From Actinomycetota bacterium (GTDB taxonomy: Bacteria; Actinomycetota; Thermoleophilia; Gaiellales; Gaiellaceae), in assembly GCA_003161615.1 (NCBI GenBank), contig PMOB01000006.1, forward strand, positions 124,001-188,000: a stretch of 64,000 bases of DNA. The letters run 5' to 3'. The notes under the pieces are model-generated. The model searched no databases. It had not been told where the DNA came from and saw nothing but the letters and a program-made list of their open reading frames with translations. Within the stretch, counting starts at the first letter, position 1. Every line of letters starts with the position of its first letter. A program made the translations under genes and the position numbers. Positions 32,576-55,333 of the stretch are shown here, piece by piece.

Positions 32576-32648
32576 GGGCGGTTAGCTCAGCTGGGAGAGC
32601 GCCTGGTTTACACCCAGGAGGTCGGCGGTTCGATCCCGTCACCGCCCA
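32576..32648 (+). tRNA. tRNA-Val (UAC)
   Basis: 73 nt including discriminator A: acceptor GGGCGGT/ACCGCCC, D arm TAGCTCAGCTGGGAGAGC, anticodon loop TTTACAC giving TAC, T loop GGTTCGATCC. No CCA encoded. The next start codon is only 4 nt downstream. Confidence 0.97.
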
Positions 32649-32652
32649 CTCG

Positions 32653-33195: not shown

Positions 33196-33396
33196 CTACG
33201 ACGACCCGACTTCGCGCTTGAAGACGAGGAGGTGCCCGTCCCGCTTGGCGCGCACGTCGGCGTCGAGGATGAGCGAGACGAGCTCCCAGCCATCGGCGCC
33301 GTACTTCCCCAGCACGTCCTCGAGGTCGTCCACCCGCAGCTTGTCCCGGCCGACCATCGAGGTCAGCACCTCTGTCGTGTACTCGAACTTGGGCAT
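33196..33396 (-). CDS. DUF4177 family protein
   Basis: 66 residues matching the small DUF4177 family: FEYTTEV at the start, LGKYGADGWELVSLI in the centre and HLLVFKREVG at the end. A compact alpha-beta protein of unknown role, widespread in Gram-positives. Full length. Confidence 0.85.
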   Translation of the reverse strand: MPKFEYTTEVLTSMVGRDKLRVDDLEDVLGKYGADGWELVSLILDADVRAKRDGHLLVFKREVGSS

Positions 33397-33402
33397 GCGG
33401 CG

Positions 33403-33408
33403 ACCCTA
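33403..33408 (-). promoter_or_regulatory. Predicted -10 for DUF4177, sharing TA with the divergent promoter
   Basis: TAGGGT (minus strand), 6 nt before ATG 33396; its first two bases are also the start of the plus-strand -10 at 33407. Confidence 0.55.
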
Positions 33409-33412
33409 CACT
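33407..33412 (+). promoter_or_regulatory. Predicted -10 for the 33419 gene
   Basis: TACACT, 6 nt before GTG 33419; overlaps the divergent -10 by 2 bp. Confidence 0.55.
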
Positions 33413-33418
33413 GGCGTC

Positions 33419-33619
33419 GTGGAAGCGGCCCAGGTGAGCCTTCTCCGCTGGCTGCGGCGGCAGCTGCGCCAGCCGATCCCGGCGCGCGAGCACCTCGAGG
33501 CGGCGGTCGAGAACAACGACGTCGGCGAGGCGCGGCGGCTGCTCGCCCGCTTCGAGTTCAGCGATGCGCAGCGGCGCAACGTCGAGCAGCTGCTCGACGC
33601 CTGGGAGAAGGCCCTCTAG
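33419..33619 (+). CDS. Small helical protein of unknown function
   Basis: 66 residues, predicted all-helical and charged (RWLRRQLRQPIP, EHLEAAVENNDVGEARRLLARFEFSDAQRRNVEQLLDAW). No family recognised. The ankyrin-like helix pair (VENNDVGEARRLLARFEF) is the only pattern. GTG 33419 supported by promoter spacing. Its end overlaps the converging PPOX gene by 4 bp. Confidence 0.6.
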   Translation: MEAAQVSLLRWLRRQLRQPIPAREHLEAAVENNDVGEARRLLARFEFSDAQRRNVEQLLDAWEKAL

Positions 33620-34224
33620 TAGAAGCCTTCGCGCCGCTTGTAGCGCTCGGCGCGCGCGTCCTCGTATTCGGAGACGTCGAGCTCGGGATCGGCGACCGCG
33701 CGAAGGATCTCCCCCGAGCTCGGCAGCTCGTCGCGAGACACGTGCTTCTCCGGGTCCCACAGCTCCGAGCGGAGCAGCGCCTTCGGGCACTGCGTGTACG
33801 CCTCCTCGACGGCGACGAGGATCCCGAGCTGCGGCGGCTTCCCCTCCACCGCGCTGTCGGCGAGCAGCTCCGCGTCGTCGACGATGCGCGCTCGGCCGTT
33901 GACGCGGAATGTGTCGTTCACCCCGGGGATCAGGAAAAGGAGCGCGATGCGGTCGTCGGAGAGGAGGTTCGTCAGCGAGTCGGCGAGCTTGTTGCCGGGC
34001 CGGTCGGGCAGGAGCAGCGTCCGCTCGTCGAGGATCCGGACGAAGCCGGCGGGGTCGCCGCGCGGCGAGACGTCGAGGCCGCCGCCGGGCCGTCCCGTGG
34101 CGACGACGACGAACGGCGAGCGCTCGACGAACTGGCGCGTGAGCGGGTTGAGCCGGTCGGCGATCTTCGCCTGCACGAGCTCGGACGGCTCGCCGAGGAT
34201 GTCGCGGAGCGCGGTCTCGTCCAT
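33616..34224 (-). CDS. PPOX-type flavoprotein (MSMEG_1061-like)
   Basis: 202 residues of the FMN-dependent split-barrel group: FVERSPFVVVATGRPGGGLDVSPRGDPAGFVRILDERTLLLPDRPGNKL is the family core (given here only as landmarks FVVVAT, DVSPRGD and LPDRPGNK), followed by GRARIVDD and the Cys-containing EEAYTQCPKALLRS. Probably reduces an electrophile or scavenges oxidised cofactors; substrate unknown. ATG 34224 shares one base with the stop of the enoyl-CoA hydratase gene (TGATG). Confidence 0.85.
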   Translation of the reverse strand: MDETALRDILGEPSELVQAKIADRLNPLTRQFVERSPFVVVATGRPGGGLDVSPRGDPAGFVRILDERTLLLPDRPGNKLADSLTNLLSDDRIALLFLIPGVNDTFRVNGRARIVDDAELLADSAVEGKPPQLGILVAVEEAYTQCPKALLRSELWDPEKHVSRDELPSSGEILRAVADPELDVSEYEDARAERYKRREGFY

Positions 34225-35021
34225 CACGTGAACTTCGGCGGCCGCTTCTCGCGAATCGCGGCGACGCCTTCCCGGACGTCCGGCCCGGTCATGTCGAGGA
34301 ACTCGAGCGCGAGCGAGGCATCGAAGATCGCGCCGGCCGCCTTCATCCACTCGTTGAGCGACAGCTTCGTGTGCGTCAGCGCCGCGCGGGAGCCGGCCGC
34401 GAGCCGCCGCGCGATCTCGAGCGCGCGCTCCTCGAGCTCCTCCTCCGGCACGCAGAGCGACACGAGCCCGATCCGCTCCGCTTCCACGCCGTCGACCTCT
34501 TCGCAAAGCAGCAGGTGGTACTTCGCCTTCGCCATCCCGCAGAGCAGCGGCCAGACGATCGCCGCATGGTCGCCCGCCGCGACGCCAAGCTTCGTGTGGC
34601 CGTCGACGATTCGAGCCTTCGGGCTCGCGACGGAGACGTCGGCGAGGAGCCCGACGACAAGGCCGGCGCCGACGGCAGGGCCGGTGATCGCGGAGACGAT
34701 CGGCGTCGGGCAGGCGAGCATGTTGTAGACGAGGTCGCGCGCCTCGTGGAAGACGCGCTGCCGCGTCTCCTCGTCGTCGGCGATCGCGAGCACGAGGTCG
34801 AGGTCGCCGCCCGAGCTGAACGCGCCGTCGGCGCCGCGGACGAGCACCGCCCGCGTCTGGGTGTCCTCCCCGATCGCCTGCCAGACGCGCGCGAGCTCGC
34901 CGTGCTGCGCCTCGCTGACCGCGTTGAGGCGGCCGGGCGCTCGCAGGGTCAGCCGGAGGATCCCGGGCTCTGGCCGGTCGATGTCCAGCGACGGGAACTC
35001 CTTGTCGTACGCGTGGGCCAC
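34224..35021 (-). CDS. Enoyl-CoA hydratase/isomerase family protein
   Basis: 265-residue crotonase-fold protein. Oxyanion-hole loops FSSGGDLDLVL and ITGPAVGAGLVVGLLAD are present. The position usually holding the second catalytic Glu reads AGDHAAIVWP, and DGHTKLGVAAGD matches hydratase-like members, so it acts on a CoA thioester but the exact reaction is open. Forms a two-gene unit with the PPOX flavoprotein. Confidence 0.88.
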   Translation of the reverse strand: MAHAYDKEFPSLDIDRPEPGILRLTLRAPGRLNAVSEAQHGELARVWQAIGEDTQTRAVLVRGADGAFSSGGDLDLVLAIADDEETRQRVFHEARDLVYNMLACPTPIVSAITGPAVGAGLVVGLLADVSVASPKARIVDGHTKLGVAAGDHAAIVWPLLCGMAKAKYHLLLCEEVDGVEAERIGLVSLCVPEEELEERALEIARRLAAGSRAALTHTKLSLNEWMKAAGAIFDASLALEFLDMTGPDVREGVAAIREKRPPKFT

Positions 35022-35028
35022 GAGGCAG

Positions 35029-35034
35029 ATCCTA
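35029..35034 (-). promoter_or_regulatory. Predicted -10 for the enoyl-CoA hydratase gene
   Basis: TAGGAT, 7 nt before GTG 35021. Confidence 0.5.
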
Positions 35035-35064
35035 CGGTCCGGCGGTACGCTCGTCGTGCAGCGC

Positions 35065-35137
35065 GGGCCGGTAGCTCAGTTGGTAGAGCAGCGGACTTTT
35101 AATCCGAAGGTCGCAGGTTCGATCCCTGCCCGGCCCA
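35065..35137 (+). tRNA. tRNA-Lys (UUU)
   Basis: 73 nt: acceptor GGGCCGG/CCGGCCC, TAGCTCAGTTGGTAGAGC D arm, anticodon loop CTTTTAA giving TTT, T loop GGTTCGATCC, discriminator A. No CCA encoded. Confidence 0.97.
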
Positions 35138-35138
35138 C

Positions 35139-36377
35139 TCAGAGCGTGGCTTCCTCCGGCACGTCGCGCAGCGTTCGGATCGGGGATGGCAGGAGGAAGA
35201 GAAGCCCCGACAACGCGCCGACGGTCGCGATCCAGAGCGTCGTATGCACGCCGATCGTCGTGCCGAGCACGCCGCCGAGCGCCGTTCCGACCGGACGGAC
35301 GCCGTAGTTGACGAGCTGAAAGCCGCCGGAGACGCGCGCGCGCACGGCCATCGGGATCGTTCCGGCCATCATCGCCCCGGCCAGGATGTCGAGCAGCATC
35401 AGGCCGATCCCCGAGAGCATCTCGGCGACGAAGAGGAAGACGAGGATCAACCAGTACGGCCCGCGCGCTGCCGGGATGAGAATCAGCGGCGCCGGGAAGA
35501 GGAAGCAGCCGAGGATGAACGCCGGGCCGAGCCCGATCCGGCGGGCGAGTGCACCGGTGAAGTAGGACGCGCCGAGTGTCCCGACCGCCGCGACGCCGAG
35601 CACGAGGCCGAGCGCAGCGGGACGCACGTGGAGGGAGCGCGTCGCGTAGAGCATGAACAGCGCGAAGAACATGAAGTTGAAGAGGTTGAGCGTCGCGACC
35701 CCTAGCAACTCCGCGCGGATGATCGGGTTGTCGCGGATCCACTGGATCCCCGACCACACGCCACCGCTCTCGCGCGACGCGCCCGGCGGCTCCTCGGCGT
35801 CGATCCGTCCCAGGAAGATCGCCGACCAGATGAACGAGACGGCGTCGACGGCGAGCGCGTACGGGCCGCGCAGAAGCTGGACGAGCGTGCCGCCGAGGCT
35901 CGTGCCGACGAGGAACGACGCACCGCGCGTCCCGTGGATCAGCGAGTTCGCGGCGACGTAGTCCTCCCGCGGAACGATCGTTTGGAAGAAGCTCCCGTAC
36001 GCGACGTAGAAGAGGACGCTGAGGCTGCCGAGCAGGAAGGCGACGACGTAGAGCTGCGTCCAGGTCAGGTGGCCGAGCGCGTACGCGACCGGAATCGTCG
36101 CGGTGAGGAGCCCGCGTCCGATATCCGCGACGAGCATCGTCTGGCGCCGCTTCCCGCGCCGGTCGATCCAGACGCCCGCGTGCAGCGAGAAGAGAAGGTT
36201 CGGGATGAGATACGCGGTCGTGAGCACGCCCATCTGCCCGGCCGAGGCGTGCAGCGCGAGCACGGCCGTGAGCGGCAGGGCGATCGTCGTGATCTGGTCG
36301 CCGAGGAGCGAGATCGACTGGCCGAAGAAGTAGCGGCGGAAGTTCGCGTTCTCTCGGAGCAGCGGCGGGATGCGCAC
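35139..36377 (-). CDS. MFS transporter
   Basis: 412 residues, about twelve helices, of the macrolide-efflux-like (MefA/enterobactin exporter) branch: NFRRYFFGQSISLLGDQIT at the N-terminus, GVWIDRRGKRRQTMLVADIGR loop 2-3 and SLIHGTRGASFLVG. Likely exports a drug or siderophore-like compound. GTG 36377 begins the protein at the usual point; the longer open frame upstream is antisense to the divergent holin-like gene. Its end is 2 bp from tRNA-Lys. Confidence 0.88.
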   Translation of the reverse strand: MRIPPLLRENANFRRYFFGQSISLLGDQITTIALPLTAVLALHASAGQMGVLTTAYLIPNLLFSLHAGVWIDRRGKRRQTMLVADIGRGLLTATIPVAYALGHLTWTQLYVVAFLLGSLSVLFYVAYGSFFQTIVPREDYVAANSLIHGTRGASFLVGTSLGGTLVQLLRGPYALAVDAVSFIWSAIFLGRIDAEEPPGASRESGGVWSGIQWIRDNPIIRAELLGVATLNLFNFMFFALFMLYATRSLHVRPAALGLVLGVAAVGTLGASYFTGALARRIGLGPAFILGCFLFPAPLILIPAARGPYWLILVFLFVAEMLSGIGLMLLDILAGAMMAGTIPMAVRARVSGGFQLVNYGVRPVGTALGGVLGTTIGVHTTLWIATVGALSGLLFLLPSPIRTLRDVPEEATL

Positions 36378-36385
36378 GTAGCGAT

Positions 36386-36391
36386 GTTCTA
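36386..36391 (-). promoter_or_regulatory. Predicted -10 for the 36377 MFS gene
   Basis: TAGAAC (minus strand), 8 nt before GTG 36377; shares its TA with the plus-strand -10 at 36390. Confidence 0.45.
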
Positions 36392-36395
36392 CGAT
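36390..36395 (+). promoter_or_regulatory. Predicted -10 for the 36402 gene
   Basis: TACGAT, 6 nt before ATG 36402. Confidence 0.5.
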
Positions 36396-36401
36396 CGCGG
36401 C

Positions 36402-36791
36402 ATGTCGCTGATGCAGAGGACCCTCGTCTCCTGGGCGATCGACGCGCTCGCTCTCGCCCTCGCCGCGTGGATCTTCTCCGGCGTCTACGGCTCGGTTGCC
36501 GCGGTGATCGTCGCGGCGCTCGTCTTCGGGCTCCTCAGCTCGTTCGTCAAGCCGGCCCTCAAGCTCCTCACGATTCCGCTTGCGCTCGTCACACTCGGCG
36601 CCGCGTGGTTCGCGGTCGCGATGTTCATCCTCTGGCTGACGAGCGCCATCGTCGGCGGCTTCCACATCCACGGCTTCTGGACGCTCGTGGGCGCGACCGT
36701 CGTGGTCTGGGCCGTCGGAGCGGCGGCCGACCGCTGGCTCTTCCCGAGCCGTCGCAAGGGGAAGGGTTTCGAGCGTTTCGTTCGCGCCTGA
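36402..36791 (+). CDS. Phage-holin-4-type (YvlD-like) membrane protein
   Basis: 129 residues with four hydrophobic helices in the pattern of the holin_4_2/YvlD family: VSWAIDALALALAAWIF, VIVAALVFGLLSSFVKPALKLLTIPLALVTLG and the terminal FWTLVGATVVVWAVG. The FVKPALKLLTIPLALVTLG motif is diagnostic. In bacteria this family has no proven lytic role. ATG 36402 favoured; ATG 36384 lies inside the promoter. Confidence 0.88.
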   Translation: MSLMQRTLVSWAIDALALALAAWIFSGVYGSVAAVIVAALVFGLLSSFVKPALKLLTIPLALVTLGAAWFAVAMFILWLTSAIVGGFHIHGFWTLVGATVVVWAVGAAADRWLFPSRRKGKGFERFVRA

Positions 36792-53766: not shown

Positions 53767-53772
53767 ATGCTA
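53767..53772 (-). promoter_or_regulatory. Predicted -10 for the XRE gene, overlapping the MOSC stop codon
   Basis: TAGCAT, 7 nt before ATG 53759; it runs into the TGA-side end of the MOSC gene (53770). Confidence 0.5.
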
Positions 53773-54546
53773 TGCGGGAACGACGGAATCGCCTACCCGA
53801 ACGCGTCCCGGCACCGCGACGCCGCAGTAGACGCCGAACGGAAGCGGCTCGGCCACGCCCTCGCGGCGGTAGGCGGCGAGGACATTGAGCGTGTCAAAGG
53901 CGAACTCGGAGGTGTCCGGATCTCGTGTTGTGACGACGCAGCGCCCGACGTCGCCGAGCGGCATAAGCACAGCGTCGCCGACGCGAACGTGTCGCCCGAT
54001 CCACTCGTCCTCCTCATGGGCTGCGACGCCGTCGATCTCGAACAGCATCCGGAACTGGCGTCCATCGGGCGGGCTCGCCGCTCCCGCCTCCGCACCCAGC
54101 CGCTCGAGCGACGCGCGCGAGACGATCGACGCCCAGCCACCGCGGTCCGCGCCGCGGTCGACGGCTCCATGCTCTGACCACAGAAGCGTGAGCGGCTCGC
54201 CGGCGAGCTCCGTGAGCGCCTCCTGCCACGGGCCGGACACGACGCGCGAGGGGTGGTCGACGCCATAGAGAGTGGCCTCGACCGGCTCGCCGGGCTCGAC
54301 GACTCCCTCGAGCCGCTCGCCACCGGGAAAGGCGAGCGCGAGCTTCCGCGTCGACTCGTCCCACTCCGGACGGACCTGCATGAGCTGCGGGAAGCGCTTG
54401 CCGTTCGCGAGCCGTGCATCCGCGTCGAGCAGCCAGAAACGGCGGTCGCCGACGACGCCCGCCCGCGTGAGCTCCACCTCCTCCGGATGCACGACGTGCA
54501 GCGCCTTCACCGGCGCGATCGAAATCCTCACCACGTGGCCCTCCAC
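53770..54546 (-). CDS. MOSC-domain protein (MOSC N + C)
   Basis: 258 residues: N-terminal MOSC_N beta barrel (RISIAPVKALHVVHPEEVELTRAGVVGDRRFWLLDADARL) and a C-terminal MOSC domain whose conserved Cys lies in DVGRCVVTTRDPDTSE, the presumed molybdenum cofactor ligand as in mARC-type enzymes. Likely reduces an N-hydroxylated compound or carries sulfur; electron partner unknown. GTG 54546 shares a promoter core with the divergent SDR gene. Confidence 0.9.
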   Translation of the reverse strand: MEGHVVRISIAPVKALHVVHPEEVELTRAGVVGDRRFWLLDADARLANGKRFPQLMQVRPEWDESTRKLALAFPGGERLEGVVEPGEPVEATLYGVDHPSRVVSGPWQEALTELAGEPLTLLWSEHGAVDRGADRGGWASIVSRASLERLGAEAGAASPPDGRQFRMLFEIDGVAAHEEDEWIGRHVRVGDAVLMPLGDVGRCVVTTRDPDTSEFAFDTLNVLAAYRREGVAEPLPFGVYCGVAVPGRVRVGDSVVPA

Positions 54547-54552
54547 GCCTTG

Positions 54553-54558
54553 ACGATA
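54553..54558 (-). promoter_or_regulatory. Predicted -10 for the MOSC gene
   Basis: TATCGT (minus strand), 6 nt before GTG 54546; shares TA with the plus-strand -10. Confidence 0.6.
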
Positions 54559-54562
54559 ACGT
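54557..54562 (+). promoter_or_regulatory. Predicted -10 for the SDR gene
   Basis: TAACGT, 6 nt before GTG 54569. Confidence 0.6.
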
Positions 54563-54568
54563 CAGCCC

Positions 54569-55333
54569 GTGGACACGGGCCTCTCGGGCAAGAGCGTTCT
54601 CGTCACCGGCGGCGCCGGCGGGATCGGCTCGGCCTGCGTGCGGGCCTTCGCCGCCGAGGGCGCACGGGTCGTCGTCCACTACAACACGAGCCGCGACCGC
54701 GCTGAGGAGCTCGCAGCCGAGGTCGGCGGCATTGCCATCGCGGCGGATCTCACCGACGAGGCGCAGGTCGACGAGCTGTTCGCGCAGGCGGGGGACGTCG
54801 AGGTATGCGCCGCGATCGCCGGCTCTTGGCCGCGGGAGGACGAGCCGGTCTGGCAGCTGCCGCTCGAGCGCTGGGAGGCGACGCTGCGGGCGAATCTCAC
54901 GGCGACGTTTCTCACGGCGCGCGGCTTCCTGCGGGTCGTCGAGCGCACCGGCCACGGCAACCTCGTCCTCGTCGGCTCGACCGCCGGCCGCTTCGGCGAG
55001 GCGGGTCACTCGGATTACGCCGCGGCGAAGTCCGCGCTCCAGGTCGGGCTTCTCCTCAGCCTCAAGAACGAGATCGTCCGGATCGCGCCGCGCGGCCGCG
55101 TCAACGCCGTCGCGCCGGGCTGGACGTACTCCCCGATGACGCGCGGCGAGCTCGACGAGGCGCTCGTGACGCGGCTCAGCCGGACGATGGCGCTCCGCAA
55201 GGTCGCGGTCGCGGAGGACATCGCGCGCGCCGTCGTCGTCCTCGCCTCCGACGAGCTTTCCGGCCACATCACCGGTGAGCTCGTGACGGTGGCAGGCGGG
55301 ATGGAAGGCCGCACCGTCCACCCAGAGGCATGA
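54569..55333 (+). CDS. Short-chain dehydrogenase/reductase
   Basis: 254 residues: TGGAGGIGSACVR cofactor loop, catalytic Ser in LVGSTAGRFG and Y-x-x-x-K in SDYAAAKSAL, and the C-terminal GHITGELVTVAGGM typical of FabG-like reductases. The usual NNAG reads AAIAG (CAAIAGSW), an atypical but tolerated variant. Substrate unknown. Its stop overlaps the methyltransferase start (ATGA). Confidence 0.9.
   Translation: MDTGLSGKSVLVTGGAGGIGSACVRAFAAEGARVVVHYNTSRDRAEELAAEVGGIAIAADLTDEAQVDELFAQAGDVEVCAAIAGSWPREDEPVWQLPLERWEATLRANLTATFLTARGFLRVVERTGHGNLVLVGSTAGRFGEAGHSDYAAAKSALQVGLLLSLKNEIVRIAPRGRVNAVAPGWTYSPMTRGELDEALVTRLSRTMALRKVAVAEDIARAVVVLASDELSGHITGELVTVAGGMEGRTVHPEA

Follow-up and report, generated by a model that had tools for sequence, protein, structure and literature searches.

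Divergent gene junctions with a single shared -10 core as candidate bidirectional leaderless promoters in a Gaiellaceae actinobacterium

Can two leaderless genes that abut head to head be transcribed from one and the same -10 element? The question is raised by a junction (site 1) within a 64,000-nt stretch of DNA, referred to here as the window (positions 124,001 to 188,000 of contig PMOB01000006.1, assembly GCA_003161615.1; Actinomycetota, Gaiellaceae). A sequence-only reading of the window had listed this junction, together with two others (site 2, 36386-36395, and site 3), as pairs of opposite-strand -10 hexamers sharing one TA step, with leaderless-type starts on both sides and an intergenic region of just 22-24 bp. 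Each pair was interpreted as a compact two-gene switch. The coordinates and the letters of all three sites proved correct on direct reading. Based on our analysis, we regard sites 1 and 3 as strong candidates for bidirectional sigma70-type promoters, each with one symmetrical 10-bp core (ANNNTANNNT) and leaderless products.

Bidirectional promoters, in which one core is read both ways, have been described previously (Warman et al. 2021; PMC10268837, 2023; PMC12825309, 2026). This is possible because -10 elements are nearly self-complementary (PMC10268837; PMC12825309), and such promoters are defined by opposite-strand starts 7-25 bp apart (Warman et al.). The common start separations are 18, 10 and 23 bp, of which 18 bp is the commonest in E. 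coli, and 24% of the E. coli bidirectional promoters sit between divergent genes (PMC10268837; PMC12825309). Leaderless genes constitute about one fifth of the genes in Actinobacteria and carry a TANNNT motif approximately 12 bp ahead of the start codon (Zheng et al. 2011, PMC3160421; Cortes et al. 2013, PMC3898074).

The window, with a GC content of 70%, comes from a GC-rich soil actinobacterium whose assembly comprises 2.32 Mb in 35 contigs. Genes were called with a simple codon-based caller in 1.26 Mb drawn from three genomes, the start codons being our own calls. Upstream of starts, TANNNT had its maxima at gaps of 6, 7 and 8 nt (124, 69 and 31 of 1212 genes; background 2.6), and neither TANNNC nor TANNNG showed a maximum in the same gene set. 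When start refinement was allowed, the box was present in 279 of 1218 genes, and scrambled motifs in 30-37. A -35 signal upstream of the TANNNT boxes was looked for and none was found. The peak at gaps 6-8 is the signature of putative leaderless genes described for Actinobacteria (PMC3160421).

A TANNNT box precedes the start codon by about 12 bp in each gene of the pairs at sites 1 and 3 and in the plus-strand gene of site 2 (Table 1). At sites 1 and 3 the boxes of the two strands overlap by a single TA (33407-33408 and 54557-54558, respectively), with gaps of 6/6 nt, and for these two sites the sequence itself and the comparisons given below uphold the paired cores, the predicted leaderless starts on both sides and the 22-bp region as the putative whole promoter.

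Table 1. Features of the three divergent junctions of the window
Feature	Position	Strand	Basis
Site 1, candidate bidirectional core ACCCTACACT	33403..33412	both	sequence; strict composite absent from shuffles
Site 1, plus -10 TACACT	33407-33412	+	sequence
Site 1, minus -10 TAGGGT	33403-33408	-	sequence
66-aa DUF4177 protein, ATG 33396, 6 nt from site 1 core	33196..33396	-	Pfam PF13783
Conserved 66-aa protein, GTG 33419, 6 nt from site 1 core	33419..33619	+	genus conservation
Site 2, -10 TACGAT of holin-like gene (36402-36791), predicted leaderless, one-directional	36390..36395	+	conserved in relatives
Site 3, candidate bidirectional core ACGATAACGT	54553..54562	both	sequence; invariant positions in 10 junctions
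Site 3, plus -10 TAACGT	54557-54562	+	sequence
Site 3, minus -10 TATCGT	54553-54558	-	sequence
MOSC-domain protein, GTG 54546, 6 nt from site 3 core	53770..54546	-	Pfam MOSC_N and MOSC
Short-chain dehydrogenase/reductase (SDR), GTG 54569, 6 nt from site 3 core	54569..55333	+	Pfam adh_short_C2

The pairing does not extend to site 2 (GTTCTACGAT; gaps of 8 nt on the minus and 6 nt on the plus strand), which had been admitted because the core was allowed to begin with G and to lie 8 nt from a start codon. Its supposed minus-strand box, TAGAAC (36386-36391), located 8 nt from the GTG of an MFS gene (35139-36377), has C at -7. At gap 8, TANNNC occurs 3 times vs a background of 8.6 per position, whereas TANNNT reaches 31 with this gap and 124 with a gap of 6. 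As a hexamer without T-7 gives no -10 signal in these genomes, site 2 does not consist of two opposed -10 boxes, and the 90 nt upstream of the MFS gene contain no TANNNT. In three relatives (G001, G006 and G011), all of them without the reverse box, the plus box is kept as TACGATCGCCGCATG. A shared symmetrical -10 in the sense of Warman et al. is present at sites 1 and 3 and missing from site 2.

How frequent is the shared core? The spacing list of called genes is biased, some stretches of two genomes (G015 and G000) having been picked after pattern matches, and for this reason our frequency claims are built on whole-genome pattern counts, for which the own genome and 15 genomes of the same genus (16 in total) were used. 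The ANNNTANNNT core consists of two opposite-strand TANNNT boxes sharing one TA; the strict composite was CAY-N6-ANNNTANNNT-N6-RTG, and the backward pattern served as the control. There are exactly 2 strict composites in the window vs 0 in 100 dinucleotide shuffles. The whole own genome contains 3 of them and no match to the backward control. The 16 genomes contain 70 vs 4, a total that is not independent and yields p-values that are too small, since some of the junctions are common to related genomes through shared ancestry. When gaps of 6-8 nt are admitted on both sides, a search proposed by the sequence-only reading, the own genome has 20 matches vs 7 control, 16 of the 20 being placed between two divergent ORFs with strong coding scores, and the 16 genomes have 338 vs 41. 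RNNNTANNNT alone is depleted in the window (38 observed vs 105 expected), and the cores are therefore rare but well placed. The arrangement is clearly more frequent than expected from base composition, the point on which the earlier reading had staked its claim, and the class of candidate bidirectional leaderless promoters is a real one.

The junction at site 3 offers the most informative comparison. The SDR gene is 78-86% identical across the genus, and the gene lying divergent to it in nine relatives is one which, judging by its sequence (VRVHVISDIEGVAGIV...), we take to encode an M55-type peptidase. Across the ten SDR junctions (the window and these nine relatives) precisely the bases that the two boxes prescribe are invariant, namely A, T, A and T at core positions 1, 5, 6 and 10, and all six N positions vary (core variants: AGACTACTCT, AGACTACTGT, AGACTAGTCT, AGATTAACCT and ACGATAACGT). 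Where the SDR gene has no abutting divergent partner, position 1 is not A in 5 of 6 loci (G005, G016, L050, L055 and L058, the last three being more distant than the genus). The exception is G001, in which SDR follows an apparent tandem copy and the symmetry of the core is kept though no divergent gene is there; this case counts against our best explanation.

The M55 gene was not found in the genome of the window, the only match elsewhere in it being of 27% identity. In the relatives, the MOSC gene has its own -10 and is situated immediately downstream of M55 or close by. In the window it adjoins the core, and 6 nt separate the reverse box from its start codon, which agrees with the MEGRVVRIS start of the relatives. 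On the simplest reading, M55 was lost and the reverse half of the core thereby became available to MOSC. In four distant relatives (L047-L049 and L057) the M55/SDR pair carries TAGCGT or TAGCCT, which in our reading fits an 18-bp register with A-11 and T-7 reciprocal, vs the 23-bp register in the genus (L038-L046). One orthologous junction appears to have changed its symmetrical register.

At site 1 the plus-strand 66-aa gene is present in 13 of the 16 genus genomes (own included), with 63-91% identity in the others, and the DUF4177 gene was searched for in 30 relatives and not found. In 4 of the 7 relatives read (L224, L226, L229 and L230) the 66-aa gene begins 1 nt past tRNA-Val. The box in the remaining three is GACACT, GAGACT or AAGACT; all of these lack T-12 and, with it, the TA required for a reverse box, so the shared TA of site 1 is specific to the lineage with the divergent partner. 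In the four relatives with the 1-nt spacing, a leaderless mRNA might arise from the processing of tRNA-Val itself; in the window, other genes separate tRNA-Val (32576-32649) from the 66-aa gene.

These observations suggest the following mechanism for sites 1 and 3. The holoenzyme would read TANNNT on either strand, with no recognisable -35, and transcription would begin with the initial nucleotide of either start codon, the two predicted starts lying 23 bp apart, so that both mRNAs would be leaderless. Each polymerase binding event would go in one orientation, and exclusion would be confined to that event, basal expression of the two genes probably being largely independent. Such an arrangement would arise because two TANNNT boxes can share a self-complementary TA, which saves two matching bases at a head-to-head junction of leaderless genes.

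It might further be proposed that a 22-bp spacer with a single shared -10 is a standard divergent junction in leaderless-rich, high-GC actinobacteria, and that the cores act as docking sites at which partners are exchanged, since a distance of 6-8 nt from a core would suffice for any leaderless ORF to be expressed at once. The exchange of M55 for MOSC at site 3, the gain of DUF4177 at site 1 and at least 16 candidate junctions in the genome point in this direction; we nevertheless offer it tentatively, as a possibility of somewhat less than even weight.

The abundance of the TA-sharing register itself can be accounted for by base economy. TANNNT can overlap its reverse complement with two positions in common in just two ways, namely by TA (starts 23 bp apart) and as TANNNTA (18 bp). 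In the genus, with gaps of 6/6, the former was counted 70 times (control 4) and the latter 25 times (control 4), and the 31 non-overlapping spacings (0-30 nt) amounted together to 63 (control 3). The net ratio of the TA-sharing register to the mean non-overlapping register is 34.1, and 32.1 is expected from the sharing of two bases, with A = 0.181 and T = 0.172 as measured between divergent starts. That the 18-bp form is relatively rare agrees with the tendency of leaderless boxes to avoid A at -6, where it was found in 8 of 124. As the observed ratio matches base economy, there is no need to invoke additional selection for coupling; base sharing provides a simple quantitative account of the register without any regulatory switch being assumed.

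This bears directly on the earlier view that the paired genes must compete or alternate, i.e. that polymerase competition couples them in an anticorrelated or alternating manner and that this coupling is the reason for the arrangement. That polymerase binds in one orientation at a time is agreed, as a core cannot hold two polymerases at once, and competition becomes measurable when one direction is strongly activated (PMC12825309). However, five E. coli promoters with separations of 10-23 bp showed no interference at basal activity (PMC12825309), and competition is possible but not required, because the interference in E. coli appears only under strong one-way activation. Moreover, the partners are unrelated (DUF4177 and a protein of unknown function, MOSC and SDR) and differ between relatives: neither the MOSC pairing of site 3, where nine relatives have M55 instead, nor the DUF4177 pairing of site 1 is conserved. 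That unrelated genes are exchanged as partners speaks against a dedicated switch, as does the register frequency, and we consider a selected two-gene switch unlikely.

It is similarly improbable that only one direction is active per site, the reverse box being a by-product or relic of symmetry and the other gene being served by read-through or a different promoter, for although this holds for site 2 and would explain the symmetry kept in G001, it is at odds with the exact 6/6 spacing to both starts, the large excess over the backward control and the fact that junctions with a divergent partner retain the reverse -7 base.

The bidirectional leaderless reading of sites 1 and 3 thus combines elements already described, i.e. 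the geometry, the principle and the leaderless TANNNT promoter. The promoters of Warman et al. rely on the same symmetrical -10, and their 23-bp separation is that predicted, from spacing alone, at our sites. On the other hand, those promoters were measured in E. coli and Salmonella, have leaders and often -35 or activator sites, whereas both products of sites 1 and 3 are predicted to be leaderless and no -35 was seen. Under the strict consensus, the 23-bp register exceeds the 18-bp one in the genus (66 vs 21 net), unlike in E. coli. Leaderless TANNNT genes match our sites in motif and spacing, but were described as single genes (PMC3160421; PMC3898074), and sites 1 and 3 would be their head-to-head, shared form; the word 'divergent' does not occur in the text of Zheng et al. 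2011 (PMC3160421). A literature search, with subscription journals mostly outside its reach, yielded no description that we recognised of -10 cores shared between leaderless gene pairs. A shared core flanked on either side by a leaderless start may therefore be regarded as a mild twist, which extends the described 23-bp register to candidate leaderless pairs in a little-studied actinobacterial lineage. Such pairs would be very clean test objects, because about 22 bp fully specify the promoter and both 5' ends.

Two further observations concern neighbouring promoters. In the genome samples L125-L184 and the window, the TA of a leaderless -10 (TAGNNT or TAANNT) often belongs to the stop codon of the gene before it, as on the plus strand of L145 (TTCTAGACTCGAGGCATG). 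Among tandem pairs 9-11 nt apart, a stop-derived TA was present in 17 of 25 (G000), 4 of 7 (G015) and 11 of 15 (G016), and TGA was nearly absent as a stop. Another symmetrical core, ATCCTACGGT, lies at 35029-35038 of the window, 7 nt from the start of a minus-strand ORF (34224-35021) and upstream of tRNA-Lys (35065-35138), and is possibly a promoter common to this putative leaderless gene and the tRNA.
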